Origin: Thermoplasmatales archaeon SW_10_69_26
GTDB lineage: Archaea; Thermoplasmatota; SW-10-69-26
Direction of reading: 5' to 3'
Length of the DNA stretch: 19,336 bases
NCBI GenBank assembly: GCA_003009755.1
Contig: PXUB01000039.1
Coordinates: forward strand, 1-19,336
How positions within the stretch are numbered: position 1 is the stretch's first letter; every line of letters begins with the position of its first letter. The position numbers were made by a program, and so were the translations under genes. Of this stretch, positions 626 to 13,155 are shown piece by piece. The notes under the pieces are model-generated. The model did not search any database. It had not been told where the DNA came from and saw nothing but the letters and a program-made list of their open reading frames with translations.

Positions 626-1258
626 CTACTTAGGCGGTTGGAGCGGGAAGGGCTCGCGCCAGGTGAGGTCCCCAGCGTGGGCGTGCAAGTAGTGATGCTC
701 GGGCAGACGGTCGGCCAGATGCATCTGTGGGGTGCTGGCGATCTCGGCGAGGTCCTCGGCGTCGTCGCTGGGCAGCCGCCAGGCCAGGACGTGGTCCGCC
801 CGTCGGCAAATCTTGGGAATCTCGTTGCTGCGGTGGATCTCGACCAGTAGGCTGGTGTCCTGCTTGTGGGCGGTCCGCCACAGGGTCGACACGTTGTCCG
901 GGGTCGCCGAGGGACTGGTCCCAGGTACCGCCCGGCTAAACTCGAGCAGGACCACCGCGAGGCCGGGGGCGAGGTTTTCGAGGGCGAGGCCGGCGACGTC
1001 GTCGAGCTGGTCGTAGCCGACGTGCAGCGAGACGCAGGGAGTGTCGACGTCGGCGAGGGCGTCGAGGCTGCGGATCTGGGTCCAGCGTTGGGGCTGCATC
1101 GTGGGCGGCGGGTCGGCTGGGTCGAGCTCGCCTTCGGGGTCGTGGACGATGGCCCGGCGGTGCAGCTCAGCAAGAAAGCAAAGCCCGGTCGTTTTCCCCT
1201 GCTCGAAGTCGCCGGCGGCAAGCACCTTGTCCCCGGGCTCGAGCTGCTGGCCGGTCAT
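626..1258 (-). CDS. P-loop ATPase, HerA/Zot-like (candidate DNA-packaging ATPase)
   Basis: A 210-aa single-domain NTPase. Residues 16-23 (GDFEQGKT) form a Walker A motif. A hydrophobic strand ending in an acidic residue (AVVLLEF, 101-107) is the likely Walker B. The strand at about 136-142 (SLLVEIH), followed by SNEIPKICRRADHVLAWRL (144-162), resembles the sensor segment of HerA/FtsK/Zot-type motors, where an IP..R.A.H stretch precedes a strand. The start is the ATG at 1258, whose ATGA overlap with the upstream zinc-ribbon gene means translational coupling; longer upstream starts lie inside that gene. Small ATPases of this class drive genome packaging in tailless dsDNA viruses or virion extrusion in filamentous phages, and pleolipoviruses also carry a conserved NTPase. 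No membrane segment is seen. The P-loop ATPase call is firm; the packaging role is inferred. Confidence 0.75.
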   Translation of the reverse strand: MTGQQLEPGDKVLAAGDFEQGKTTGLCFLAELHRRAIVHDPEGELDPADPPPTMQPQRWTQIRSLDALADVDTPCVSLHVGYDQLDDVAGLALENLAPGLAVVLLEFSRAVPGTSPSATPDNVSTLWRTAHKQDTSLLVEIHRSNEIPKICRRADHVLAWRLPSDDAEDLAEIASTPQMHLADRLPEHHYLHAHAGDLTWREPFPLQPPK

Positions 1259-1467
1259 AGCACCCCCAGGGTCTTGGCTTGGCTCAGGAGGTTCTCGAGG
1301 TCCTCGAGGCACCGACGCTCGCCGATGGGGACCGCCGCCTCTACGCTGCATCCGTCGCCGCAGGTAATGCAGGTGAGGCTTGCCAAGTGAGGAGACTGTT
1401 TGGCAGATTGGTCGGCGTAGAGATGCCCCTCGGGGCAGGTCCAGAGGCGGAGGTAGACCTCAGTCAC
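1255..1467 (-). CDS. Zinc-ribbon miniprotein (70 aa)
   Basis: The product is 70 aa from a GTG start at 1467. That start overlaps the previous gene's stop as GTGA, and this gene's own TGA overlaps the ATPase start as ATGA, so it is coupled on both sides. Cys11, His15, Cys33, Cys36 and Cys40 (CPEGH ... CITCGDGC) form a treble-clef or ribbon-like metal site. A longer frame upstream (to 1575) is Arg/Pro-rich and is a shadow of the neighbouring gene. The function is unknown; such miniproteins are common in archaeal viruses as DNA-binding or adaptor proteins. Close linkage with the ATPase may mean a functional link. Confidence 0.7.
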   Translation of the reverse strand: MTEVYLRLWTCPEGHLYADQSAKQSPHLASLTCITCGDGCSVEAAVPIGERRCLEDLENLLSQAKTLGVL

Positions 1468-1691
1468 CGGTGTTGCCCCCCGCGGCCGCGACGGCGCTGT
1501 TGGCGTTCTTTGAAGCGTTGGGCGGCGGTTTGGACGTCGCCGACGGGGAGGGTGACGCCGTAGCCGCCGCAGCATTTGACGTCGTAGACGATCATCACGC
1601 CGTCTTCTCCGCCGGCTTTGGCGTACTGGCTATCGGGTAGCGGTTCGCCGCACGTCACGCAGTGCTCGGGTTCGGGCGTCTCGTCGGTCAT
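1464..1691 (-). CDS. Cys-containing miniprotein (75 aa), probable zinc knuckle
   Basis: The start is the ATG at 1691 (ATGA overlap with the 288-aa gene) and the stop forms a GTGA overlap with the 70-aa gene. CVTC (11-14) and an adjacent CC pair (40-41) suggest one metal site. The C-terminal third is basic (RFKERQQRRRGRGGQHR), which would suit nucleic-acid binding. Family not recognised. It is the first of two consecutive metal-binding miniproteins leading into the ATPase. Confidence 0.7.
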   Translation of the reverse strand: MTDETPEPEHCVTCGEPLPDSQYAKAGGEDGVMIVYDVKCCGGYGVTLPVGDVQTAAQRFKERQQRRRGRGGQHR

Positions 1692-2554
1692 GCTTTCAGT
1701 TGCTCCTTGAAGCGGGCTTTGCGGGCGTCGAGGTCGGCGTCGTCGGGTTCGGCATCGGGGCCGGCGTGGTCGGTGGGCGTATGGTCTTCGAGGTCGTCCT
1801 CGGTGGCGTCGTCCTGGTCTTGACGGGCGTTTTGGCGGGCTTCGAGGACGCGGGGGCCGAAGACGGCGACGGTGGTGACGGCAGCGCTCACCTCGGCGCC
1901 GTAGTGGGGGAGGTATTTGGCCACGACGGGACTCCAGGCGTCGACCAGGGCGTCTTCTTCCTGTTGGGAGAGGGGTTGGGCGCCGTGGTTCTCGAGGCGG
2001 CCGCTGACGACGCGGACGGTGCTGGTGACAAGCGGGGCGGCCTCGGCGGGATCCATCGCCGGCGGCTCGTCGTCAAGGCCGCCGCGGGAGGTCTCCTTTT
2101 CGGGGGCGGTCTCCTGGTCCTCGTCCGTGGCCTCGGGGGCATCGCGTCGGGGCTTGGGGCGGTCGTCTCCGCCGGGGAGGCTCCAGGTGGTGGCCTGGGG
2201 CTTGTCGACCTGGGCGGTGGCGGGCTCCTGGTCGCGGAGGTCCTCGAGGTTGCGTCCCCCAGCCTCGGGCCCAGGCTCGGCCTCGGCCTCGGATTCGTGC
2301 TGGGGATCGGGCTCGGTTGGGGCCTCGTCGGCGTCGGGATCGTCGGTGCTGGGGGTCCAGCCGTCGTCGGCGGCCTCGAGCTTGGTTTTGTGCTTCTCGC
2401 GGACGTGGTTGGCCATCGGACCGGCGGGGGCCTGTTTCTCACATATTTGGCATTTGTAGCGGGTTTGCCAGGGCGGGGCGTCGTCGCCCTTGTCATCGAC
2501 CCGGTTGGCGAGGTCTTTCCATCCCATCCAGCCCAGCCATGCCAACCCAGACAC
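1688..2554 (-). CDS. C2H2 zinc-finger protein with acidic linker and helical C-terminal domain
   Basis: The 288-aa product starts at GTG 2554, six nt after the methyltransferase stop; ATG 2527 is an alternative. Residues 35-55 hold a classical C2H2 finger (C35-x2-C38-x11-H50-x4-H55) after a Trp-rich N-terminus. Residues about 60-165 are low-complexity and very rich in Asp, Glu and Pro. Residues about 168-235 look like a compact helical domain (LSQQEEDALVDAWSPVVAKY followed by an alternating hydrophobic segment ending GPRVLEAR). The tail is again acidic. The layout suggests a DNA-binding adaptor with a flexible linker. I do not recognise the C-terminal domain. Its place between the modification enzymes and the ATPase would allow a role in regulation or genome recognition, which is speculative. 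Confidence 0.75.
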   Translation of the reverse strand: MSGLAWLGWMGWKDLANRVDDKGDDAPPWQTRYKCQICEKQAPAGPMANHVREKHKTKLEAADDGWTPSTDDPDADEAPTEPDPQHESEAEAEPGPEAGGRNLEDLRDQEPATAQVDKPQATTWSLPGGDDRPKPRRDAPEATDEDQETAPEKETSRGGLDDEPPAMDPAEAAPLVTSTVRVVSGRLENHGAQPLSQQEEDALVDAWSPVVAKYLPHYGAEVSAAVTTVAVFGPRVLEARQNARQDQDDATEDDLEDHTPTDHAGPDAEPDDADLDARKARFKEQLKA

Positions 2555-2560
2555 AAGTAA

Positions 2561-3427
2561 CTACCCGTCTGTGAGTTCCAAGGTCGGGATTTGGCGGCGG
2601 AGTTGGCGGGCGACGGCGCGGCCCATGGCGAGGGGGACGCTGTCGCCGATGGCTGCCGCGGTGGCGGTCTTGGTCTCGGGGAAGGTCCATTTGTCGGGGT
2701 CCATCCCGTGCAGGCGGGCCATGTCATCGGTGTCCAGCCATCGGATGCTGCTCCGGTTGGCCTCGTCCCAGAGCAGGAATCCGTTGACGGATTTGCTGGT
2801 GAGGGTGTAGCCGGGTTCGTGGCCAGGCAGGACGGGCAGGCGGTTTCGGTCCCGATACGCGGCTTGTTGCTGGAAGTCGGCCATGAGGTTCTCATCGCCG
2901 GGGAGGGCTTCGGCCCAGCCGTTGATGGGTTCGAGGCGTTGGCCGTCGAGGCGGGCCTGGCCGGGGTCGCCGTGGGTCCGAGGGGGGGGGTTGTGGAGGC
3001 CTTTGAAGCCGCGTTCGCGGATCGTGTAGCCGCCGACGTCGCAGTCGCGGACCTTGGTGACGTTGTCGATGCCTTGCCAGCCGAGCATGACGTTCTCGAG
3101 CGCGGTGGCTGCGGGGTCGTAGGCGTCGACGAGGTCGAGCACCGCATCGCGGAGGCTGGTGTCGTGCTCGGCGTTGTTGTTGGCTTGGCTGTAGGTTTGG
3201 CAGGGGATGCCGCCGATGACGACGGTTTGGTTGGGGGGCGAGTAAGCGGCGAGGTCGGCGGCGTCCAGGTCGGTGACGTCGGCGACGTTGCAGGTGGCGT
3301 CGGTGTTTTGCTCGTAGCAGCTGGCCCGTTTGTCGTCGAGTTCCCAGGCGGCCATGACGTCGAAGCCTTCGAGCTCGAAGGCCCGGCCGAGGACCCCGAT
3401 ACCGCCGCACAGATCTAGGACGTTCAC
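2561..3427 (-). CDS. DNA (cytosine-5) methyltransferase
   Basis: The 288-aa product has the C5-methylase motifs in order: motif I DLCGGIG (5-11, SAM binding), motif IV GIPCQTYSQ with catalytic Cys76, motif VI ENV (111-113), the recognition-domain region, motif IX-like RWLDTDDMARLHGMDPD (229-245) and motif X IGDSVPLAMG (260-269). It would transfer a methyl group from SAM to cytosine C5 in a specific DNA sequence. The start is GTG 3427, overlapping the PP-loop gene's stop as GTGA; a frame extending to 3478 lacks family similarity. At under 300 aa it is at the small end of the family. No restriction endonuclease is adjacent, so it is probably a solitary methylase protecting the element's DNA or marking it during replication. 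The target sequence cannot be predicted. Confidence 0.93.
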   Translation of the reverse strand: MNVLDLCGGIGVLGRAFELEGFDVMAAWELDDKRASCYEQNTDATCNVADVTDLDAADLAAYSPPNQTVVIGGIPCQTYSQANNNAEHDTSLRDAVLDLVDAYDPAATALENVMLGWQGIDNVTKVRDCDVGGYTIRERGFKGLHNPPPRTHGDPGQARLDGQRLEPINGWAEALPGDENLMADFQQQAAYRDRNRLPVLPGHEPGYTLTSKSVNGFLLWDEANRSSIRWLDTDDMARLHGMDPDKWTFPETKTATAAAIGDSVPLAMGRAVARQLRRQIPTLELTDG

Positions 3428-4245
3428 AAGGGACCTCCCTCGGTCCTCGGAGTCGTCCCGTTTCCGCAGGTGGAGCAAAGCATCGCCTGGCTGGGATCGA
3501 GCTCGGCGCGGACGGCCCGGCGCTCGGACTCGGTCATCCCGCCCCAGGCCCAGAGGAGGCGGTGGGCCTGGTCGACGTCGTCGGCGAGCTCGTCCTCGAC
3601 GAGCCCCTCGAGGTTCTCGAGCCAGTCGGCGTGTTCGTCCTCGCCGGCGGCGCGGAGATCGAGGAGCTCAGCCGGGCTCCCGTAGAAGCCGCAGAAGCAG
3701 TCGCCGGAGCGGCCAAGGTCGGCCCACAGGGGGTTTTCGGGGAGGTCGTTCTCGGCGATGTGTTCGCAGACCTGGTTCTTCGTCCACTCAGCGAGGGGCG
3801 CGACCCAGGTCCAGCGGTCGGCCTCTTGGACGGGCGTCACGCGACCCATGCGGTTGCGGCTCTCCCGACGCCGGACGCCGGTCCACAGGTGGAGCCCTTC
3901 ACCCTGGCCCCGGCCGCCGACGGTGGTAGCGAGGCGTTCGAGTGGCCTCTCCTTGAGGCGACGGTAGAGGACAGGGTGGTCTCGGGGGCCGGGGAAGCCG
4001 TGCGTGGTGACGATCTCCGCGTAGCTCTCCCGCGTTCGGAGGGTCCAGAGGTGGGCGTCGAGCTCGTCGGCCAGGTCTTCGACGTATTGGCGGTTGCTCT
4101 CGAGGCCGGTGCCGGTGTCGAGGTAGACGAGGAGGCCGACGCCGTGCTCAGTGACAGCGACGTGGGCCGCGGCGGTGCTGTCCATCCCGCCGCTGACAAG
4201 GGCGACGTGGGTCTCGCCATGCGACGGCTCGGGTAGGTCAGCCAA
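3424..4245 (-). CDS. PP-loop ATPase, phosphoadenosine phosphosulfate reductase-like
   Basis: The 273-aa product carries the PP-loop SGGMDST (18-24), which adenylates substrates in the PAPS reductase / QueC / DndC superfamily. Other family-like blocks are YLDTGTGLES (41-50), LWTGVRRRES (120-129) and GRSGDCFCGFYGSPAEL (178-194). Cys160, Cys183, Cys185, Cys257 and Cys260 could hold a metal or Fe-S cluster. TTG 4245 is the likely start, overlapping the HAD gene by 8 nt, and the gene's TGA overlaps the methyltransferase GTG. Viral and plasmid members of this family are common but mostly uncharacterised. Possible roles are sulfur chemistry on DNA (DndC-like) or base modification. The adjacent DNA methylase favours a DNA-modification role, but no cysteine desulfurase or other Dnd/Ssp partner is in the window. 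Confidence 0.8.
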   Translation of the reverse strand: MADLPEPSHGETHVALVSGGMDSTAAAHVAVTEHGVGLLVYLDTGTGLESNRQYVEDLADELDAHLWTLRTRESYAEIVTTHGFPGPRDHPVLYRRLKERPLERLATTVGGRGQGEGLHLWTGVRRRESRNRMGRVTPVQEADRWTWVAPLAEWTKNQVCEHIAENDLPENPLWADLGRSGDCFCGFYGSPAELLDLRAAGEDEHADWLENLEGLVEDELADDVDQAHRLLWAWGGMTESERRAVRAELDPSQAMLCSTCGNGTTPRTEGGPL

Positions 4246-4696
4246 GGCCGGGAGCCTCCTCGAGCTCGTCGGTGATGTCGGCGCCGGCGAGCAGGCGCCA
4301 GGTCCTCGCGAAGATGAAGCGAGCGCCGGCCTGGCTGGCGGCTTTCAAGTCGTAGAGACGGTCGCCGATGTAGACGTCGGCGCCGATCTTCGCGAGGACC
4401 TCGGCCTTCCACGCTCGAGCATCTTCGATGCCCTCCCACGGCTCCGGCTGGAAGTGGACGTCTTCGAGCGGGGGGGTATTCACGTTAGCGAGCTGGTGGG
4501 TCGTCGCACCGGCAAGCCGGGTGGTGCGGGCGGTGACGATGTGGACGTAACAGCGGTGCGCGATGCGGGATAAGAGATTCATCGACGGCCTGTGCGGTCT
4601 TGTCGAGGCCCGGACGCTGACGGGATCGGTGAAGTCGGCGTCCTCTTCTCCGGTGAACAGGGTCCCGTCGAGGTCGACGGCGAGCGTGTTCAACAC
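4238..4696 (-). CDS. HAD-superfamily hydrolase (phosphatase)
   Basis: The 152-aa product has the HAD signatures: motif I VDLDGTLF with Asp8 as nucleophile and Asp10, motif II HIVTART (Thr55), a Lys near 97 for motif III, and motif IV IGDRLYDLKAA (Asp112, Asp116). It contains only a small cap region and resembles 5'-nucleotidase-type HADs, so a nucleotide or other small phosphate is a plausible substrate. GTG 4696, preceded by GAGGGGGGT, is preferred; the much longer frame upstream overlaps other genes and is Arg/Pro-rich noise. It overlaps the Cys-rich miniprotein gene by 7 nt and the PP-loop gene by 8 nt. Together with those genes it may form a nucleotide or DNA-modification module. Confidence 0.85.
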   Translation of the reverse strand: MLNTLAVDLDGTLFTGEEDADFTDPVSVRASTRPHRPSMNLLSRIAHRCYVHIVTARTTRLAGATTHQLANVNTPPLEDVHFQPEPWEGIEDARAWKAEVLAKIGADVYIGDRLYDLKAASQAGARFIFARTWRLLAGADITDELEEAPGLG

Positions 4697-4881
4697 GGAC
4701 CCCCCTCGGTGGCGTGGTCGCCGTATCGGCACCAAACGCAGAGGCGGTTGCAGAAGTACGTGTGGAGCTCGCAGCCGGGCTCGCACTCCTCGCAGGGGCA
4801 CGGGTCTTTGGGTCGGCCGCTTTCGAGGGCCACCGCCTCGTAAAGGTCGGTGACGGCCTCGCAGGAGTTCGGACGGCTCAT
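4690..4881 (-). CDS. Cys-rich metal-binding miniprotein (63 aa)
   Basis: This 63-aa protein contains nine cysteines (7, 28, 30, 33, 37, 44, 48, 51, 63) and His40, most of them packed into residues 28-51. This is enough for two zinc sites or an Fe-S cluster. The ATG at 4881 overlaps the upstream stop as ATGA, and its stop lies inside the HAD gene's start region. The family is not recognised. The density of ligands and the tight coupling to the HAD and PP-loop enzymes make a metal-trafficking, electron-transfer or DNA-binding role possible. Confidence 0.7.
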   Translation of the reverse strand: MSRPNSCEAVTDLYEAVALESGRPKDPCPCEECEPGCELHTYFCNRLCVWCRYGDHATEGGPC

Positions 4882-5105
4882 GTTGGCCCTCCCTCATCAG
4901 GGAGCAGGTCGCGGGGCGTGGGGCCATAGCAGCCCAGGGGTACGCGGTCGTGCCAGACCGCGCAGTCGGCGATGTAGCTTTGGATGAGGTGGCCTTGCTC
5001 GAGATCCTGGGCCTCGAGGACGTCAGGGCCGTCCAGGTCGAGGAGCAGGGCGCCGGGGTCGCCTATGGGTTCGTCTGGCATCGGGTCGTGGCTGTCGCTA
5101 TTCAT
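4878..5105 (-). CDS. Hypothetical acidic 75-aa protein
   Basis: The start is the ATG at 5105, overlapping the stop of the replication-initiator gene by 8 nt; the TGA at 4878 overlaps the next ATG as ATGA. The sequence is Asp/Glu/Pro-rich at both ends with a central segment (LIQSYIADCAVWHDRVPLGCYG) that probably folds. There are two Cys residues. It has no recognisable family. Placement directly after the candidate initiator suggests a replication accessory factor or small regulator, an inference from position only. Confidence 0.65.
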   Translation of the reverse strand: MNSDSHDPMPDEPIGDPGALLLDLDGPDVLEAQDLEQGHLIQSYIADCAVWHDRVPLGCYGPTPRDLLPDEGGPT

Positions 5106-6750
5106 CGTTGTCCTCCTGTCGTTTGATCTCGTGGTCGCGCATCCGCCAGCTGATCGCGTCGTGGCGGAGGCGGTCGGTGTCGGCCGCGTCGATCAGCCGG
5201 CCGCGGCGGACGCTGGGCTCGACGTCGACGGGGTCGCGGTCCTCCTCGGCGGGATCGTGGCCCAGGCTAGCCTGGGCGTCCTCGCTGGCTCCGTCCCCGA
5301 TGGCCTGCTCGCACAGGCGAGCGACGTCGGTGCGGTTGAGGCCGCCGTGCTCCTCGAGCTGCTGCCCGCAGCGGGTGCACATCTCGGCCTCCGGCAGGGT
5401 TACGTAGGTGGCCAGTCGGTCGCGGGCCCGCCATTCGAGCCCGCGCATGTTCTCCGGCGTCGGGGGGTCCAGCCCGTCGCCGCCGGCCGCCTCGTGGACC
5501 AGGGCGCTGGCTATGTCCTCGCGGACGAACGCGAGCCAGCCGGTGTCTTCGAGCTGGCCCCAGAGGTTCTCGCCGGCGTCGGGGTCGGGGACGCCGAGCT
5601 CGTCGGCGAACGCCTGCCAACCGCGGTGGCCGAGCTCGCCGTACCAGCGGCTCATCTGCCAGTTCTCCGGCGTTAGGGCCTGGACGGTCAGGACGCCGGC
5701 GGTGAACTCGTCGAGGGGGACGGTTTGGGTGTCGTGGTCGAGGTCGTCGCGGTCCTCGACGTCGAGCCGGACCCAATCCTGGCCGACGCTCAGGAGGCGC
5801 CGGTTGACGTCCTCGAGGTGGGGCCGCGTGTTGTACTTGGCTCCGTGGCTGAGTTTCGCCAGGTCCTCGCGGTCCCGGACCCACAAGGGCCGGTAGCGGA
5901 GGTTCTGGGTGCCCTCGAGGTCGCGGCCGCTCCAGTCCTCGAGGAGGTCCTTCCAGAGCTCGCGCATCTCGTCGAGCTCGCTCGTGGGCCGGTACAGCGG
6001 GCGCTGGCTGCCCGGCTCGCGCTCGAGGGCCCGCAACTCGCCGTGCTGATTACGGTAAACGGCCGGCGCCCAGACGTGCAGGTGGGGCCGGATCTGGTGG
6101 GGGAGGCTGCTGCTCGTCCGGTGGATCGAGACCCATGCCCCGACGGGCTCGCCCGGCAGGCCCATCAGCCGCCAGGCGTGCTCGAGGAAGGTCTCGCCGA
6201 GCCGGGCGAAGTCCCCGCCGCCTTCGTCCACGATCTCGCCCCAAGCCTCAGCCTCGAGCTCGGGCGGCAACGTGAGCTCGCACCGGATGAGGCCGAGCTC
6301 GCCCCCGCGGCCGCCGACGGCTTTCGCCATCCGCTTGAAACGGTCTCTGGCGGTCGATCCTCGCCCTTGGAAGGCGTTCCAGCTCCGGCCGTGGGGGTCC
6401 CAGCGGTCGCCGCTCAGGTAGGGCCGCCAGGAGGGGTCCTCGTGGCGCTCGCCGTCGCCGGCGTCGGGGCAGGAGACGGCGACGTAGCCCTCGCAGCCGC
6501 CGATCTCGTCGATTCGCTTTTCGTCGGGCAGCCGCGTGGGCAGCTCGCTGAGGACGCCGCGAGGCACGAGCTCGCCCTCGGCCTGCATCCGGTCGTAGGT
6601 GGCCAGGGCCTCCAGCCACGACATGTAGGGGGCCTTGGGCCGGCGCTGCTCCCAGTAATCGAGCACGCCGTCCACGGGAGAGGACTCGTCGGCCACGTCA
6701 TCGAGCAGCCATGCGGGGGCCCGCGCTCCGAACCGATCGGCGGCCGTCAT
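5098..6750 (-). CDS. Candidate HUH rolling-circle replication initiator (Rep)
   Basis: The 550-aa product has motifs in the order expected of HUH endonucleases: a strand LGLIRCELTLP (152-162, motif I position), the metal-binding histidine pair RPHLHVW (His223, His225, motif II), and LSHGAKYNTRPHL (300-312) with Tyr306 as candidate nucleophile (motif III, reminiscent of single-tyrosine Rep and IS91-type YxxR segments). These enzymes nick one DNA strand at the origin and stay linked through tyrosine. The C-terminal part is long and Trp-rich, with a CxxC pair (458-461, MCTRCGQQ) and an acidic end. ATG 6750 is preferred because GGGGGGCCGAG precedes it; an in-frame GTG at 6780 is the alternative. 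It opens the leftward operon, next to a hairpin-rich region that could be its origin. A transposase of IS91 type is a less likely reading. Confidence 0.6.
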   Translation of the reverse strand: MTAADRFGARAPAWLLDDVADESSPVDGVLDYWEQRRPKAPYMSWLEALATYDRMQAEGELVPRGVLSELPTRLPDEKRIDEIGGCEGYVAVSCPDAGDGERHEDPSWRPYLSGDRWDPHGRSWNAFQGRGSTARDRFKRMAKAVGGRGGELGLIRCELTLPPELEAEAWGEIVDEGGGDFARLGETFLEHAWRLMGLPGEPVGAWVSIHRTSSSLPHQIRPHLHVWAPAVYRNQHGELRALEREPGSQRPLYRPTSELDEMRELWKDLLEDWSGRDLEGTQNLRYRPLWVRDREDLAKLSHGAKYNTRPHLEDVNRRLLSVGQDWVRLDVEDRDDLDHDTQTVPLDEFTAGVLTVQALTPENWQMSRWYGELGHRGWQAFADELGVPDPDAGENLWGQLEDTGWLAFVREDIASALVHEAAGGDGLDPPTPENMRGLEWRARDRLATYVTLPEAEMCTRCGQQLEEHGGLNRTDVARLCEQAIGDGASEDAQASLGHDPAEEDRDPVDVEPSVRRGRLIDAADTDRLRHDAISWRMRDHEIKRQEDNDE

Positions 6751-6797
6751 CTCGGCCCCCCGCAGAGACCAAATGCACACGTCTGTACATCAGGGGG

Positions 6798-6805
6798 TAT
6801 TTGAA
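6798..6805 (-). promoter_or_regulatory. TATA box for the Rep-led operon
   Basis: On the minus strand TTCAAATA is a good archaeal TATA element in an otherwise GC-rich stretch. Initiation about 25 nt downstream would fall near 6776, giving a short leader before the ATG at 6750. A TGTACA palindrome just downstream (6785-6790) could be an operator. This supports a promoter dedicated to the accessory operon. Confidence 0.6.
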
Positions 6806-6918
6806 TGGGGGTCGGCGCCCGCGGAACCTGTCTCCCCATTCCCACCAAGGGGGAGCCGACCATACTGGGCGCGCCTCGCGGCACCCTTGGCTGGGATGGG
6901 CTGCCTGGTAGTCGGGAT

Positions 6919-6952
6919 AACCCCGCGCGGCCGCGGGGCGGCCGCGCGGGTT
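6919..6952. repeat. Strong GC-rich hairpin with one bulge
   Basis: Arms 6919-6934 and 6938-6952 pair over 15 bp, interrupted only by one extra C on the left arm, with a GGG loop. It lies between the tRNA-like sequence and the Rep promoter. It could be a replication-origin hairpin for the HUH enzyme or a barrier between transcripts. No U-tract follows on either strand. Confidence 0.7.
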
Positions 6953-6991
6953 CGGTGGTGGACTGTTGGCTCGGTGCTCGAGCCGTAGAAG

Positions 6992-7069
6992 GCCGCCGGC
7001 CGGACTCGAACCGGCGTGGCCCCCGGCTTCGGGCCAGGGGCCGGATCGGCCTGGCTACCTCACGGCGGC
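6992..7069 (-). tRNA. tRNA-like sequence with non-canonical anticodon arm
   Basis: Read leftward, 78 nt fold with a perfect 7-bp acceptor stem (GCCGCCG with CGGCGGC), T8-G9, an archaeal-style D arm (A14, G15, G18-G19 and A21 equivalents, and a U13-U22 opposition as in archaeal Pro, Gln or Glu tRNAs), and a perfect 5-bp T stem with a TTCGAGT loop. The discriminator would be C and no CCA is encoded. The anticodon arm is wrong for a working tRNA. A CCCCT/GGGGG stem leaves an 11-nt loop, while the longest pairing gives a 9-bp helix with loop CCCGAAG, and neither places U at position 33. It may be a decayed tRNA, an attachment site derived from a tRNA, or a viral tRNA mimic. No intron in a typical bulge-helix-bulge is visible. 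Confidence 0.5.
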
Positions 7070-7078
7070 AGCGGAGGG

Positions 7079-7101
7079 CCACCACACGTCGTGTGTGGTG
7101 G
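7079..7101. repeat. Hairpin, 9-bp perfect stem
   Basis: CCACCACAC (7079-7087) pairs with GTGTGGTGG (7093-7101) around a 5-nt loop, starting 10 nt upstream of the 5' end of the tRNA-like sequence on the minus strand. It is one of four hairpins clustered between 6919 and 7183. Confidence 0.75.
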
Positions 7102-7107
7102 TCTATG

Positions 7108-7129
7108 ACCCCCGACATGTTGTGGGGGT
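7108..7129. repeat. Near-perfect 22-nt palindrome
   Basis: ACCCCC and GGGGGT arms flank a centre (GACATGTTGT) that is itself nearly palindromic, so almost the whole 22 nt is self-complementary. It could be a dimeric protein-binding site (operator) or part of an origin. Confidence 0.6.
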
Positions 7130-7137
7130 GGTCGGTG

Positions 7138-7183
7138 GGCGGGCCGGCCGCCGACCTGTGGTGGGGTCGGCAGTCGGCCCGCC
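7138..7183. repeat. Long two-part hairpin downstream of the 74-aa gene
   Basis: GGCGGGCC (7138-7145) pairs with GGCCCGCC (7176-7183) and GCCGACC (7150-7156) pairs with GGTCGGC (7165-7171), separated by a symmetric 4x4 internal loop and closed by an 8-nt loop. It begins seven nt past the stop of the 74-aa gene in the direction of transcription. It could be a transcript end or RNA-stabilising structure, although no U-tract follows. Confidence 0.75.
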
Positions 7184-7189
7184 GGAGGC

Positions 7190-7414
7190 TCACGGTGGGG
7201 TCTCGCCTCCCTCGTCGGTCTCGATCACCAGGGCGAGCGGGGCGGTGGACGTGTCGCCGCCGCTGGCCTGACTGAGGTAGCTATCGACGGCCTCGGTCAC
7301 CCAATTCTCGGGCCCCCCGCTGACGGGGACGGGCAGCCGCCAGCGATCAGTGAGGAACCATATCTCGCCGAGCGGGGTGTGGAGGAGGGGCGTCAGGTAG
7401 GCGGTCTCGGCCAT
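7190..7414 (-). CDS. Hypothetical 74-aa protein
   Basis: Third gene of a leftward three-gene cassette. The ATG at 7414 overlaps the preceding stop by one base (TGATG), indicating translational coupling. The product is soluble and acidic at its end, with an N-terminal segment MAETAYLTPLLHTPLGEIWF and no Cys. The family is not recognised. A strong hairpin follows its stop. Confidence 0.65.
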   Translation of the reverse strand: MAETAYLTPLLHTPLGEIWFLTDRWRLPVPVSGGPENWVTEAVDSYLSQASGGDTSTAPLALVIETDEGGETPP

Positions 7415-7716
7415 CAGGGCCGCGCCTCCCGGGGCTCGAGGATGCCGACGGTTCGGCCCTCGAGGGCGTCGGGGACGTCTTCCCGGGGGCCGTCGTCGAG
7501 CGCGAGGCGGGCGGCCTGGGCGAGGACGCGCTCGGCCCGATCCTGACGGCTCACTCGGAAGACCTTGGCGAGGCCGGGCCGGTCCGGGTCGCCGATGCCG
7601 ACCTCAGCGATGACGACCTCGCCGGCCGAGGCCATGATGCGGACCTCGACGGTGGCCGGAGCCTGGTCGCGGACCTGCTCGAGCAGCTCGCCGGCGGGCG
7701 CCGGGTCGGAGCTCAA
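7414..7716 (-). CDS. Hypothetical 100-aa protein
   Basis: The likely start is TTG 7716, overlapping the upstream stop as TTGA. The product looks like a small alpha/beta fold: a helix (AGELLEQVRDQ), two strands (TVEVRIMASAGEVVIAEVGIG), then a helix (RQDRAERVLAQAARLAL) and an acidic tail. There are no cysteines or membrane segments. I do not recognise the family. Its codon pattern (G/C third positions) matches real genes nearby. It is coupled to both neighbours, so the three proteins are probably made together. Confidence 0.65.
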   Translation of the reverse strand: MSSDPAPAGELLEQVRDQAPATVEVRIMASAGEVVIAEVGIGDPDRPGLAKVFRVSRQDRAERVLAQAARLALDDGPREDVPDALEGRTVGILEPREARP

Positions 7717-8156
7717 GGGCGACCGCCCCCGGCGATCTTGCAGCCGAGCCGGTGGGCGTGCTCGCCGACGTCCTCGGCCTCCTGGCGGATCTCCTCGCGG
7801 AAGCTCTCGAGGGTGCCCGGCCTGACGCCATCGAGGTCGAGGGTGTCGAGGAGCTCGGTGAGCCGGTCGGCGACGTCGTGCAGGGCTCGGGCTCGGCCGC
7901 GTTGGACGGCGTGGGCGTAGGCGAGCGAATCGCTTGCCGGGTCGCCGTCGAGGCGAGCCCGCAGGTAGTCGAGTTGAGTGGAGAGACGGCGGACTTGCTC
8001 AAGAGCGAGGGCAGCCGCCTCGAGCTGCCGTTGGCGCCCGCCGCCATGGCGGCGAGCGTCACCTCGCAGCCGTGAGATGGTTGCGCCGAGGTTGTCGGGC
8101 AGTTGGTCAGAATCTGAGCGCGAGAGGTCGGGGTTGTAGGGTGTCTCGTCGTTCAT
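7713..8156 (-). CDS. Hypothetical helical protein (147 aa), possible coiled coil
   Basis: First gene of the leftward cassette. The ATG at 8156 is preceded by GGAGGGT five nt upstream, but that site lies within strong hairpins (8158-8205). The protein is almost entirely helical by composition, with heptad-like hydrophobic spacing in residues about 45-70 (LEAAALALEQVRRLSTQLDY) and 90-110 (ARALHDVADRLTELLDTLDL). It ends with a short His/Gly tail. There is one Cys near the end. No family is recognised; a structural or DNA-associated role is possible. Whether the cassette belongs to the accessory element or to the host is not clear. Confidence 0.7.
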   Translation of the reverse strand: MNDETPYNPDLSRSDSDQLPDNLGATISRLRGDARRHGGGRQRQLEAAALALEQVRRLSTQLDYLRARLDGDPASDSLAYAHAVQRGRARALHDVADRLTELLDTLDLDGVRPGTLESFREEIRQEAEDVGEHAHRLGCKIAGGGRP

Positions 8157-8488: not shown

Positions 8489-8695
8489 CCGATAGAGCCC
8501 TCGCCGGTGTCCCTTCCCTCACCCTTGCTCCCGCCAGCTCAGGCCAGAGCCCGGGCCGGGGACGTTGATCCCGGCATCGGTCGGATCGCGAGACCGGATC
8601 GGGCGTCGACGGCCTCGGGCGACCACCGTCGTTCGCCTGGGTGAGGGAAGACCTGCAGGAGGGGAGAGCCTCGAACCCGGATGGTCGACGGCGGG
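8489..8695. other. Non-coding stretch before the tandem repeat
   Basis: No convincing gene on either strand. It holds a short imperfect stem (CGGTC/GACCG around 8580) and a CCTGCAGG palindrome (8652-8659). The open frames crossing it are Arg/Pro-rich and run into the repeats. Confidence 0.5.
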
Positions 8696-8881
8696 CTAGC
8701 GATGCTCGCGTTTCGTACGAGCGGTCCGAGGGAAGTGTGCCTTAGGCGTTTCCACTCATCGCAGGTCGGCTTGACGTGATGGGGGAGCCGACCTGCGATT
8801 TCGCACGGGCGCCCGGAACGCTGTGAGGGCGGGCGCCCGTGCTCACTGAGAACCGCCTCGGGCCAAGCGTCTCGAGGCGGA
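8696..8881. repeat. 186-bp tandem repeat, copy A
   Basis: First of two direct copies, starting CTAGCGATGCTCGCGTTTCG. It contains three inverted repeats. H1 has arms 8758-8770 and 8787-8799 (13 bp perfect) with a 16-nt loop. H2 has arms 8803-8814 and 8831-8842 (12 bp perfect) with a 16-nt loop. H3 has arms 8853-8860 and 8873-8880 (8 bp) with a 12-nt loop. A short GCTCG/CGAGC stem lies near the start. No coding potential is evident. Confidence 0.9.
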
Positions 8882-9067
8882 CTAGCGATGCTCGCGTTTC
8901 GTACGAGCGCCCGCGGGAAGTGTGCCCTGAGCGTTTCCACTCATCGCAGGTCGGCTTGACGTGATGGGGCAGCCGACCTGCGATTTCGCACGGGCGCCCG
9001 GAACGCGGTGGGAGGGGGCGCCCGTGCTCACTGAGAACCGCCTCGGGCCAAGCGTGTCGAGGCGGTT
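8882..9067. repeat. 186-bp tandem repeat, copy B
   Basis: Second copy at exactly 186 bp offset. H1 arms 8943-8955 and 8972-8984 (13 bp) and H2 arms 8988-8999 and 9016-9027 (12 bp) are unchanged. The H2 loop differs in sequence from copy A (ggaacgcggtgggagg against ggaacgctgtgagggc) yet remains 16 nt. H3 extends beyond the copy to a 16-bp perfect stem (9030-9045 with 9058-9073, 12-nt loop). In copy A that stem is cut to 8 bp because copy B begins there, implying that copy A was created by duplication. Confidence 0.9.
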
Positions 9068-9077
9068 CTCAGTCACG

Positions 9078-9102
9078 TACGTCCGGCCGCTGGCCGGACG
9101 TA
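9078..9102. repeat. 11-bp perfect hairpin H4
   Basis: TACGTCCGGCC (9078-9088) pairs with GGCCGGACGTA (9092-9102) around GCT. It lies between the tandem repeats and the hairpin at the mcm stop codon, continuing the run of palindromes. Confidence 0.85.
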
Positions 9103-9108
9103 GTGATC

Positions 9109-9144
9109 GACAGACGGCCGCCGTCGTGTGGCATGCCGTCTGTC
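9109..9144. repeat. 10-bp hairpin H5 overlapping the mcm stop codon
   Basis: GACAGACGGC (9109-9118) pairs with GCCGTCTGTC (9135-9144) around a 16-nt loop, the same loop length as H1 and H2. The right arm includes two bases of the mcm TGA (9143-9145), so the structure sits exactly at the 3' end of the mcm reading frame. It may end or protect the mcm transcript. Confidence 0.85.
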
Positions 9145-11266
9145 AATCCCGCACCAACCGGTAGTGGTCGCCGTTGTCGGGCGAGTACAGCGTGCCGCGC
9201 TGGTTCTTCAGCATCTTGATCGTGTCCTCGACCTGGTGCTCGGTGATGCCGCGCTCGGCGGCTTGGGCCACGATCACGTCGTAGGGCGCGCCGTCGGGGT
9301 TCTCCTCGCTGAGCTCCCGCACGATGTCCAGCAGGATGCGGATGCGCTCGCGCTGGCTGTGGCCGACACCGCTGGCGACCAGATCGATGTCCATGAGCCC
9401 GCTGCCGCCCCCGATCTTCCGCAACCAGTACTCGACGATGTCGATGGCTCGCTGGGCGTCCTCGAGCTCGGCCTCGTTCGACAGCCGGATGCGAGCCGAG
9501 GCCTCGGTCAACCGGACCAACGCCTCGAGCTGGCGAGGCGTCAACGGGATGCGGCCGCTGTCCTCGCCGCCTTCGCCGCGGATCTGGACGTAGTAGTCCT
9601 GCAGGTGCTCGCGCGCCTCCTCGGTGAGCACCGGGAAACACTCCCGGCGAGCGTAGGCGACGTACTTGCGCAGGAAGTCCTCGTCGACAGGCGGCTCGAC
9701 GACCTGGTTGGCCTCCTCCTGGTCGTCCTCGGTGAACAGGCCCTCCTCGTGCCGGTCACGGTACTCGCGGATCGCGCCGGCCCTGTGCACGCCCATGATG
9801 TGGTCCGCCAGCTCGCGGTCCTTCTCCTCCTCGGGGTCGTCGGTGAGCGTGAAGATCACGTCGAAGCGGCTCATCAGCGCCGGCTCCATCGTGATCTGCT
9901 CGGCCAGCGGCTGGTTCGGGTCGAAGCGGCCGAACTTCGGGTTGGCCGCGCCCAGGATCGCGCACCGGCTGCGCAGCTCCGCCTGGATGCCGGCCTTGGC
10001 GATCGAGACCGTCTGCTGCTCCATGGCCTCGTGCATCGACGACTGATCCTTGCGGTCCATCTTGTCGATCTCGTCGACCGCGCACAGGCCCTTGTCGGCG
10101 AGCACGAGCGCGCCCGCCTCCAGCGTCCATCGCCCATCGGCCAGATCGTCGCGCACGGCCGCCGCCGTCAACCCGGCCGCCGAGGACGATTTCCCGCTCG
10201 TGTACACCGAGCGGGGCGCGATCTTCTCGGCGAACCCGAGCAGCTGGGATTTCCCCACGCCCGGGTCACCGACGAGGAGCACGTGGATGTCCCCGCGGAT
10301 GCGGGACCCGTCCGGCATGCGCTTGGCGACGCCGCCGAACAGCTGCATCGCCAGCGCTTGCTTCTCCATCTCCATGCCGCGGATCGTGGGGGCCACGCTC
10401 TCCACGATCTTCTGGTAGAGGTCGGGATCGCGGGCGAACTCCATGATCTCCTCGACCTCGTCCTCGCCGATGTCCACCTCGTCGAACTCCTGCTCTTGAA
10501 CCTCGACGCTGTTGACCTCACTGTAGAGGTCGAAGAGGGTGGACGGTTGCCCGTTGATGCGGCGCTGGTCGCTGCGGAGCACCCCGTTGAGGATGATCCG
10601 ATCGCCGGGAGCGACGTCGCCCGCCAGATCCCCTTCGACGTAGGCTTCCAGCCGCTCGGGCTGCTCCCCGCCGCGCAGCCCCTCGGGAGCCTCTTGCAGC
10701 TCCAGACGCTGCGTGTCGACGTAGGTCGAGTCGCCCTCGTCGAACCGGAACTGGCTCTGCTTCTCGCACTGCTGGCAGCCTTGGGGCTCCTTGAACGTGA
10801 GATGGTCGTCCTGCTCGACGTGCTCGGTGTGGCCGCACCGCAGGCACTCGAAGGCGCCGACCTCGAGCTTTGGGCGGACCTCGCTGGCCTTCTTCACCAA
10901 CCCGCGGATCGCGACGAACCGACCCAGGTGTTCGGCCCGCAGCTGCCGGATCGGGACCAGCCAGTGCTCGGGCAGCTCGTAGACGCGCACCGTGATGTCC
11001 AACGGCTCGTCGACGGGCGTCTCCAGCCGCCGCACCGCTTCCTTGGCCGCCTCCAAGCTCTCGACGGGGTTCTCCAAGGTCGCGTCCGCCAGCTCGTCGT
11101 CGTGCTTGGCCAGCTGCCAGTACGGGACCAGCAAGGACGACTCCTCGGGGTAGGCCAACGCGACCTGATCGAGCTGGCTGCGCTGGTACGTTCGGAGGTA
11201 CTGTTCCCAGGAGCGACGGAGGGCTTCCTTCGTGAGGGTCGTGGAGACTTGGACAGGCGTGGCCAT
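9143..11266 (-). CDS. mcm: MCM replicative DNA helicase
   Basis: The 707-aa product is a complete archaeal MCM, the hexameric 3'-5' helicase that unwinds DNA at the fork. The N-terminal domain includes a C4 zinc site (Cys141, Cys144, Cys164, Cys167) and an OB fold. The AAA+ core has Walker A GDPGVGKS (333-340), Walker B CAVDEIDKM (395-403), sensor 1 GAANPKFGRF (439-448) and the arginine-finger segment LMSRFDVIF (464-472). The last 80 residues form the usual winged-helix domain. ATG 11266 is chosen: GGGGTG precedes it and the family N-terminus begins soon after, whereas the upstream extension to 11353 is Pro/Gly-rich; ATG 11281 is a minor alternative. No intein is present. Neighbours give no replication operon. 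It marks the transition from the accessory region to chromosomal genes. Confidence 0.97.
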   Translation of the reverse strand: MATPVQVSTTLTKEALRRSWEQYLRTYQRSQLDQVALAYPEESSLLVPYWQLAKHDDELADATLENPVESLEAAKEAVRRLETPVDEPLDITVRVYELPEHWLVPIRQLRAEHLGRFVAIRGLVKKASEVRPKLEVGAFECLRCGHTEHVEQDDHLTFKEPQGCQQCEKQSQFRFDEGDSTYVDTQRLELQEAPEGLRGGEQPERLEAYVEGDLAGDVAPGDRIILNGVLRSDQRRINGQPSTLFDLYSEVNSVEVQEQEFDEVDIGEDEVEEIMEFARDPDLYQKIVESVAPTIRGMEMEKQALAMQLFGGVAKRMPDGSRIRGDIHVLLVGDPGVGKSQLLGFAEKIAPRSVYTSGKSSSAAGLTAAAVRDDLADGRWTLEAGALVLADKGLCAVDEIDKMDRKDQSSMHEAMEQQTVSIAKAGIQAELRSRCAILGAANPKFGRFDPNQPLAEQITMEPALMSRFDVIFTLTDDPEEEKDRELADHIMGVHRAGAIREYRDRHEEGLFTEDDQEEANQVVEPPVDEDFLRKYVAYARRECFPVLTEEAREHLQDYYVQIRGEGGEDSGRIPLTPRQLEALVRLTEASARIRLSNEAELEDAQRAIDIVEYWLRKIGGGSGLMDIDLVASGVGHSQRERIRILLDIVRELSEENPDGAPYDVIVAQAAERGITEHQVEDTIKMLKNQRGTLYSPDNGDHYRLVRD

Positions 11267-11342
11267 GATCGTGCACCCCATCGCTTCCAGCGGGGACGGC
11301 CGCCATCCCGGGGCCCCTTCACCAGGTTTCTCCGGAAGCAGG

Positions 11343-11350
11343 GGAAAAAC
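11343..11350 (-). promoter_or_regulatory. Possible mcm promoter element
   Basis: On the minus strand GGTTTTTCCCC is the only AT-rich patch upstream of mcm. A transcription start about 25 nt downstream would give a leader of about 50 nt, consistent with mcm having a Shine-Dalgarno-like GGGGTG. The spacing is reasonable but the match to a TATA box is weak. Confidence 0.3.
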
Positions 11351-11401
11351 CACCCCGGGGGCACGCCCACCCCCCTGTTGCGAGTGGAGGGCCCAACCCT
11401 C

Positions 11402-12341
11402 TCACGCCCTATCCTGCTTCCCGCGAACGGTTCGACGGGTTTTCGGTTCTTCTGCGAGCCAGGGCAGATCCGCCCTGAGCAGGCGAAGAGGTCCCGTGCG
11501 ATGCGCCAACGTGGGGCGGTCGGTGATGAGGTCCATCAGCGAGGGATGGCTCGTGGCCCGAGCCAGCTGGCGTTGGCCGTTCACCGTCCAGACGACGATG
11601 GGTCGATCCAGCGAGAAAACGCGAGGCCGGCCTAACCGGAACAACCGGCGCTCGAGCACGAGCCTGTCCGGGTCGGCCTCCTCGACCCACCAGCGCAGCC
11701 GGCGCATGCGGCGGCGCGAGACCAGCAAGCGGTCGGCCCGGTAGGCCCAGGATCAGCCCGGTCGGGCTGGGGTTCCCGGCGTCGTCGGTGTCGCGGACGA
11801 GGTCACGGTGGACCCCGGTCACGACCGCGGCCGGGGTCTCTGCATCGTCCAGCGTCTCCAACACAGCGTCGGTCGCTTGCGGGGCCTCGATCTCGGGGTT
11901 CGCCGGTCCCCGCGAAGACGTCCTCGCCGACGGACCATCGACCCTCGCCAGCTCCTAGTCAAGCTAGACTGCCGGACGTGTTTTGCTTAAGCTCTCGCGC
12001 CGGTCTCGGCAGACCGGGCACGGTCTGCCGAGAGTACGGGCGCCAAGCCCGTGCGAATGAGCGAGGCAAGGTCGCGGAGCCCGAGGAAGGAAACCCCCTG
12101 TGGGTTTTCTCGGTCCCCGAGCTCGGACGAGGAGGTCTGCGAGACGGGGAGTCCGGCCAGCGTCCGGTCGCGGGGAAGAATCGGGATGCCATCGGCCGTC
12201 GAGCGAGGGTCGAGATCGACCGCGTCCGCCAGAGGCGAACGCGGCTTCGACGCTCTCGATCGTGTGCTCGTGGTCGACGACCGGGGCTAAACCGCGATGG
12301 GAGACGACCGGCGGCCGGGTGGCCGGCCACCCCTCCCCCAT
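11402..12341 (-). pseudogene. Glycerophosphodiester phosphodiesterase, frameshifted and interrupted by a repeat
   Basis: The remains of a GDPD gene are read in three frames. The N-terminal part from ATG 12341 has the HRG signature (VVSHRGLAPVVDHEHTIESV). After a shift near 12230, the frame continues ADAVDLDPRSTADGIPILPRD, where the family normally has ELD...T.DG.PV..HD; the catalytic His of HD is Arg here. Repeat copy 1 (11963-12109) then breaks the gene and brings a stop. Downstream, TPAAVVTGVHRD and, after another shift near 11745, FSLDRPIVVWTVNGQ and LITDRP match the C-terminal GDPD block (VWTVN ... TDRP). A further shift is likely near 11905. Three shifts, a mutated catalytic residue and an insertion argue for a true pseudogene rather than a sequencing error. 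It begins 12 nt after the FKBP stop, so it was probably co-transcribed with that gene. Confidence 0.8.
11963..12109 (+). repeat. Palindromic interspersed repeat, copy 1 (with 52-nt extra hairpins)
   Basis: It begins GCTAGACTGCCGG and is identical to copy 2 over the first 44 nt. It then has 52 extra nt (12007-12058), which help form a 12-bp perfect hairpin (12004-12015 with 12022-12033) and a shorter ACGGGC/GCCCGT stem. It rejoins copy 2 for about 50 nt with one substitution and one indel, ending in a GAAACCC/GGGTTT stem. It lies within the GDPD pseudogene. Confidence 0.85.
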
Positions 12342-12824: not shown

Positions 12825-12918
12825 GCTAGACTGCCGGACGTGTTTTGCTTAAGCTCTCGCGCCGGTCTGAGCGAGGTAAGGTCGCGGAGCCCGAGGAAGG
12901 AAACCCCTGTGGGTTTTC
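12825..12918 (+). repeat. Palindromic interspersed repeat, copy 2
   Basis: Uninterrupted form of the repeat, located upstream of the FKBP gene. It holds CTCGC/GCGAG and GCTC/GAGC stems and a terminal AAACCC/GGGTTT hairpin. Its strand opposite to FKBP reads GCTTAAGC, which could act as a TATA-like element for rightmost-derived transcripts into FKBP, but it is about 70 nt away. Confidence 0.85.
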
Positions 12919-13060
12919 GACGGATGCTGGGTGGCCAGGAAATGTTCACCAAATCGAGGGGGAGCGGTCTCCGTGACCCCCCTCACGGCGGGGCCGCCCT
13001 CAGGCGGCGACGACGCAGGTTCCCCATGTCCGCGGGTTGTAAGCGTTGTCGCCGTCGACA
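12919..13060. other. Gap between repeat copies with two further hairpins
   Basis: No gene supported. It contains CCGTGA/TCACGG (12971-12976 with 12983-12988) and GCCGCC/GGCGGC (12993-12998 with 13003-13008). A short minus-strand frame ending at 13000 reads YFDVDGDNAYNPRTWGTCV; it looks protein-like and may be a remnant, but there is no start or context to call a gene. Confidence 0.5.
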
Positions 13061-13155
13061 TCGAAGTAGCCTCCGGCTACTCCTTCGTCTCGGCTCCGCG
13101 CTTTCACCGCCTGAGGCCGAGCGAGAGCTGAACCCAAGCATCGCCGGCAGTCTAG
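13061..13155 (-). repeat. Palindromic interspersed repeat, copy 3 (diverged, inverted)
   Basis: On the minus strand it begins with the same 12 nt, CTAGACTGCCGG, and keeps AGCTCTCGC, GCGGAGCC and GAAGGA blocks in the same order as copies 1 and 2. The terminal hairpin has a different sequence, AGTAGCC/GGCTACT (13065-13071 with 13075-13081), at the position where copies 1 and 2 have AAACCC/GGGTTT. Pairing is therefore kept while sequence changes. Its edge supplies the TAG stop of the secreted-protein gene. Confidence 0.65.

Follow-up and report, generated by a model that had tools for sequence, protein, structure and literature searches.

In the genome of Thermoplasmatales archaeon SW_10_69_26, dozens of strand-oriented rows of near-perfect hairpins follow tRNA and protein genes at their 3' ends, and the array next to mcm is one of them. 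Often, such a row consists in part of a mirror copy of the end of the gene itself. These arrays form a real class, which is directional and conserves structure, and for which neither a described element type nor a name was found in the literature searched so far. The window, i.e. the whole stretch of DNA analyzed here (19,336 nucleotides), corresponds to contig C39 of a host genome of 2.82 Mb, which is 95% complete.

The array next to mcm

The array extends over positions 8659-9148 on the minus strand, starting at the stop codon of mcm and running toward lower coordinates. In MCM searches the window came out close to Thermoplasmatota; the top named relatives shared ~51% identity. Read from mcm toward the far end, the following parts were located:

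9143-11353, minus strand: mcm, archaeal MCM helicase (Pfam MCM domains, E 3e-95); stop codon at 9143-9145, 3' end facing the array
9105-9148, minus strand: first hairpin, gene-end type X-loop-X'; inverted repeat of 14 nt, 93%, one mismatch, spanning the mcm stop codon
9078-9102, minus strand: hairpin with 11-bp stem and 3-nt loop; perfect inverted repeat
9030-9073, minus strand: hairpin with 16-bp stem and 12-nt loop, then linker GA; perfect inverted repeat
8988-9027, minus strand: hairpin with 12-bp stem and 16-nt loop, then linker GAA; perfect inverted repeat
8943-8984, minus strand: hairpin with 14-bp stem and 14-nt loop, then GAGT; perfect inverted repeat
8882-8908, minus strand: half R1 module GCTCGTACGAAACGCGAGCATCGCTAG, compared with R1 members; other arm lost at the duplication junction
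8853-8880, minus strand: second copy of the 16-bp hairpin, shortened to 8 bp by the duplication junction; 12-nt loop
8803-8842, minus strand: hairpin, second copy, with 13-bp stem and 14-nt loop, then linker GAA; perfect inverted repeat
8758-8799, minus strand: hairpin, second copy, with 14-bp stem and 14-nt loop, then GAGT; perfect inverted repeat
8690-9065, minus strand: tandem duplication with copies 8690-8880 and 8876-9065, start spacing 185-186
8659-8714, minus strand: degenerate R1-family module at the far array end (covariance model R1, 33.8 bits, E 6e-7)

The left arm of the first hairpin, GATTGACAGACGGC, comprises the last mcm codon, the stop codon and 8 nt, and is followed by a 16-nt loop and by GCCGTCTGTCGATC, a near-perfect inverted (mirror) copy of this arm; its perfect core at 9109-9144 consists of a 10-bp stem around a 16-nt loop. 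The same X-loop-X' layout recurs at other genes and tRNAs. A search for displaced copies of the mcm end yielded none. Within the tandem duplication (94% identity over 155 nt) the copies differ at 1 of 70 stem positions versus 11 of 120 other positions, i.e. loops and linkers. The R1 module at 8659-8714 exhibits the outer stem GCGAGCATCG and a CT bulge, with ACCAT replacing ACCG in the loop. Plasmid and phage records gave no DNA match, and no Rfam family matched at gathering score in the window.

The long perfect inverted repeats within a 185/186-bp tandem duplication, which a preliminary description had reported, are present well beyond chance, and seven repeats were located. The coordinates assigned to the array at that time, 8696-9144, proved too narrow, with the R1 module beginning at 8659 and the last hairpin reaching 9148, and part of its sequence is related to other places in the genome: the 27-mer found at 8696-8722 and again at 8882-8908 also occurs on contigs C6 and C38 with 2-3 mismatches. 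Furthermore, the loops of H1, H2 and H5 had been described as exactly 16 nt long. The maximal loops measure 14, 14, 14, 16, 12, 3 and 16 nt; both copies of the hairpin H2 close one further pair (T-A), which leaves 14 nt, H3 has 14 nt in copy 1 and 16 nt in copy 2, H4 12 nt and H5 3 nt, and neither copy was found to have a hairpin of at least 7 bp at the position of H1. A scan of 1.51 Mb of the genome unveiled broadly distributed intergenic loop lengths as well, with a peak at 11-17 nt and a tail to ~35 nt, while loop lengths in coding DNA were flat. Because of this breadth, and because the 16s observed here are partly a counting effect, a special role of this number was rejected. The proposal that one machinery reads hairpins with length-constrained 16-nt loops can point to several loops here which are 16 nt long if the innermost H2 pair is left open; with maximal loops of 3-16 nt in the array and the broad distribution in the genome a fixed loop of 16 nt is ruled out, and such a machinery has become highly improbable. 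What endures of the geometric reading is that structure is kept while sequence changes, together with rules of position and strand.

Elsewhere in the window, positions 626-8156 contain mostly unassigned minus-strand genes, of which a C5 DNA methyltransferase, a PAPS-reductase-like protein and a HAD-like protein match phage families; this block beside the mcm array is possibly an integrated element. The minus-strand tRNA-Ser(CGA) at 6991-7069 is followed, ~40 nt past its 3' end, by a hairpin with a 13-bp stem and a 3-nt loop (6922-6950). Positions 12826-13155 and 11958-12109 belong to a family of ~330-bp imperfectly palindromic repeats with dozens of related sites in the genome, many of them at contig ends.

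Hairpin arrays at gene 3' ends across the genome

For the genome survey, 1.51 of 2.82 Mb were read in pieces, using gene models made in this analysis. Intergenic perfect stems of at least 10 bp amounted to 232, compared to 31-34 in first-order Markov sequence of the same size, and those with loops of 10-20 nt to 91 compared to 4-11. At a stem length of at least 12 bp, 92 intergenic stems were found versus 0-3 per 255 kb of random sequence of intergenic composition, five of the 92 falling in the mcm array. The Markov null and the coding control exclude a chance origin of the hairpins. Clusters of at least three hairpins were observed 17 times in 1.51 Mb and not once in mcm loci from other archaea, which totaled 851 kb. 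These 80 loci without any such cluster rule out a conserved mcm-linked origin or regulator, and conservation of the array at mcm in relatives, which had been suggested as a check, was not observed among them.

Neighboring hairpins (non-overlapping choice) are most often spaced by 2-4 nt (66 pairs), the linkers being mainly GA, GAA, GAAT, GAAC or GAG, and in 41 of 48 pairs the direction of the GA linker corresponds to the strand of the upstream gene or tRNA. Spacers between convergent genes are enriched in clusters (14 of 124, compared to 11 of 241 divergent spacers), and straddling hairpins are found at 20 3' gene ends versus 5 5' ends. Arrays are also located at genes resembling orc1/cdc6 and a cytochrome oxidase subunit. 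The arms are highly diverse, 179 different ones being present among 198 intergenic hairpins, and only sub-families such as R1 share sequence.

The R1 family is characterized by an outer stem around GCGAGCATCG, a two-base CT or TT bulge, a variable inner stem and ACCG in the loop. The covariance model gave 19 strong matches at 13 loci, window included, and every one of the 19 members lies downstream of a gene or tRNA of its own strand, at a distance of 35-428 nt. Relatives, of which 480 kb were scanned, gave no match at E < 0.01. In an alignment of 14 sequences 94.8% of the cells are paired, a value which was never attained by shuffles. Both sides changed at 14 of the 18 pairs, where the covariation of the outer stem is partly built in, since this stem was preselected for perfect pairing in the first list; the inner stem, which was not preselected, exhibits both-sided changes at all 6 pairs.

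Copies of the adjoining gene end are most evident at tRNAs. Downstream of 15 of the 32 tRNA candidates a direct or inverted copy (at least 12 nt) of their own 3' end was identified, which is a lower estimate because a few of the 32 calls are probably false. For comparison, the upstream controls gave 3 direct copies and 1 inverted copy. Direct downstream copies of at least 12 nt are present at 11 of 32, as expected of tRNA-targeting islands, and most direct copies comprise 15-19 nt and begin at the T-loop. With variations, the units follow one order: tRNA 3' end, spacer, inverted copy of T-arm and acceptor strand, GGTTC, hairpin, GA, hairpin, GA and direct copy from T-loop to 3' end. This order was seen at tRNA-Leu (C14), tRNA-Val (C42), tRNA-Arg (C34, C19), tRNA-Met and tRNA-Gln (C46) and tRNA-Glu (C41), the units at tRNA-Leu, -Val, -Arg and -Met being ~110 bp long. 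Direct copies of the tRNA 5' part (17-25 nt) were noted upstream of tRNA-Arg 9987 on C34, tRNA-Val 19003 on C42 and tRNA-Ser 123698 on C1.

Among the protein genes, mcm, cox3-like and htpX-like genes and others carry the inverted (mirror) layout of their ends. Exact direct copies of at least 16 nt occur genome-wide at 5 3' ends versus 0 at 5' ends, and the end-copy signal of the protein genes is modest on this scale. One array with a ~90-bp period (G000:C19:44500-44956), in which a gene 3' end recurs five times between the hairpins, outwardly resembles a CRISPR.

The relatives searched all lay outside the host genus. Similar units were found at some tRNAs of four genomes from other families of the same class (G002, G003, G004, G006), and none of 27 tRNAs of the same-family genome G001 had a 3'-end copy; the presence of arrays among relatives is patchy. 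Several tRNA units of relatives have the loop GAGCGNAGCGA, which presumably contains the very stable d(GCGAAGC) mini-hairpin with tandem G-A mismatches flanking and which we regard as a lead. As a general marker this loop was discarded, the pattern alone not exceeding its reversed control genome-wide. Tandem tRNA-end units are found at L315 and L316 (G002) and at L325 (G003), with hairpin stems that differ between the units in G002; these loci are usable for dating unit turnover.

Origin and upkeep of the hairpins

Comparison of tandem copies showed 8 pairs with both-sided changes, each of which restored the pairing, versus 3 with a one-sided change, and overall changes were found at 19 of 286 stem positions versus 89 of 478 others (p 2e-6). 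Likewise, 20 R1 matches gave 55 both-sided versus 11 one-sided changes, G-T pairs accounting for ~4%. The paired changes favor a constraint which is templated or acts at the DNA level, as opposed to slow compensatory change in an RNA. This bears on the idea of a functional 3'-end RNA, according to which the arrays would be part of transcripts, as 3' UTRs or tRNA trailers, and serve as RNA-decay barriers, terminators or binding sites, transcription giving rise to the strand rule. The 3' position and sense orientation, the enrichment between convergent genes, the lower rate of change in stems and the conserved bulge and loop of R1 are all consistent with such an RNA. However, the arrays, with their rare G-T pairs and dominant both-sided changes, are unlike typical RNA helices, many tRNAs would have their T-arm and acceptor strand paired with the mirror copy, and the presence among relatives is patchy, and we consider a functional RNA quite improbable.

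Perfect hairpins have been described to arise and to be maintained through template switching (PMC8794818), and in yeast quasipalindrome mutation was seen only under high transcription (PMC3820800). Following this published route, the arrays could be mutational scars: replication would stall at the ends of heavily transcribed genes, a fold-back or template switch would write the mirror copy, an upstream return would duplicate the gene end, and the same process would keep the arms identical, neither a mobile element nor a function being needed. In support, each mirror copy corresponds to the particular gene end beside which it lies, and the paired changes in tandem copies and R1 together with the few G-T pairs fit templated copying better than stepwise RNA evolution. 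Left unexplained are the modules common to distant loci (R1 at 13 loci, with conserved bulge and loop), the GA linkers and the excess in only some genomes, with no copies at the G001 tRNAs. Scars are, in our view, a rather unlikely account of the arrays. How perfect palindromes arise and persist is a general question in hairpin evolution, and paired changes in recent tandem copies provide a direct test of their origin and upkeep, i.e. of selection versus templated correction.

Only three phage-integrase-type (tyrosine-integrase) genes were found in the genome, adjoining and convergent with tRNA-Phe, tRNA-Gly and tRNA-Glu, whose displaced copies lie 13.4 kb, 4.4 kb and 15 kb away, respectively; the integrase gene of the tRNA-Gly island is at C2:33411-34055. 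The end of the tRNA-Gly island reads X'-GGTTCA-hairpin-GA-hairpin-GA-X, the same layout as that of the ~110-bp tRNA units, and mainly for this reason the units are read as possible gene-free island derivatives. The tRNA-Glu island, and the tRNA-Phe island beside its first distal copy, are devoid of the terminal hairpin pair. An integrase gene lies inside the element in the three islands and is absent from the small units and the mcm array. Several integrases of relatives also adjoin tRNA 3' ends; the integrase islands of G002, G004 and G006 had no tRNA copies at their distal ends within the stretches fetched, and G003 possesses units and no phage-integrase-type gene above threshold.

Since the boundary of the tRNA units is formed much as at the integrase islands, the units may be non-autonomous integrative elements which enter at gene 3' ends. 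We tentatively favor, with somewhat less than even confidence, that the array consists of hairpin cassettes which are non-autonomous and accumulate behind genes, at their 3' ends; these cassettes would be integrative and possibly moved by a tRNA-targeting recombinase. Each cassette would comprise one or few inverted repeats (stems of 8-18 bp), which a GA-type linker connects head to tail and which have the orientation of the preceding gene. The first hairpin would be built from the gene's own 3' end and its mirror copy, further modules (R1 and others) would then be added, and tandem duplication would lengthen the row; at tRNAs, the unit would be placed between the tRNA and the displaced T-loop-to-3'-end copy. 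Tyrosine recombinases that target tRNAs and act on palindromic DNA might move the units in trans, and we propose that the arms stay identical because they are a recognized structure and/or are corrected by template switching. We infer mobility and a mobilizing enzyme for the cassettes, and any function for the host would be putative.

It is unlikely that one enzyme set acts on so many different gene ends, and ordinary site-specific integration would not be expected to yield a mirror copy specific to the target. No close relative showed an empty site. The upstream copies of the 5' part at three tRNAs, all of which have downstream copies too, also count against cassettes, as do the negative search for a displaced mcm end, the islands devoid of the terminal hairpin pair and the units of G003, where no integrase gene exceeded the threshold. 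Most of the layout is accounted for by cassettes and the mirror copies are better explained by template switching; both may act together. A more far-reaching notion, which we place on the unlikely side, is a class-wide archaeal element type that would copy the 3' end of any gene it settles behind into its own hairpin arm, so that tRNA and protein genes would gain strand-oriented, GA-linked cassettes whose identity is structural and not sequence-based. If the arrays are read correctly as elements, the archaeal class has a previously unnamed hairpin element at a large share of its tRNA genes (here about half) and at many protein genes.

Comparison with known systems

In agreement with the preliminary description, the array was not recognized as CRISPR, REP or a described attC type. 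The REP/BIME palindromes of bacteria are intergenic, often located at gene 3' ends and clustered, and the arrays resemble them in this respect. REPs are conserved in sequence and have RAYT, a relative of Y1 transposases, whereas the stems here differ from locus to locus. REP/BIME elements mobilized by RAYT were ruled out by this diversity of arms (179 in 198 hairpins) and by the lack of any Y1 transposase match (PF01797) in the 95% complete genome. Casposons insert at the 3' ends of tRNA or protein genes with a short duplication and are similar in this regard; with no match to Cas1 (PF01867) in the genome, a casposon or CRISPR adaptation product was ruled out. A retroelement or retron product was likewise dismissed, the genome having no match to reverse transcriptase (PF00078).

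Double-hairpin and repetitive hairpin-forming elements of mitochondria (DHE/RHE; fungi, sponges) are comparable in being short non-coding hairpins, dispersed, divergent and patchy between relatives, and are thought to be mobile (PMC2800124). Dispersed hairpins of conserved structure and divergent sequence, the hallmark of the DHE/RHE type, are found in the arrays as well; DHE/RHE are mitochondrial, whereas the arrays are archaeal. DHE/RHE are not known to mirror the end of a host gene, to be joined by GA linkers or to obey a strict strand rule at 3' ends. The attC sites of integrons, including archaeal integrons (PMC9668308), resemble the hairpins as folded recombination sites with structure prevailing over sequence and with bulged bases; the arrays differ in that no cassette genes lie between the hairpins. 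Archaeal tRNA-targeting islands and their remnants, as described for Sulfolobus islandicus (PMC3718332), have in common with the units the tRNA 3' end as target, a displaced 3'-end copy and a tyrosine integrase. In contrast to these islands, the units are ~100-200 bp long, gene-free and made of hairpins, and their mirror-copy layouts are found at protein genes, too.
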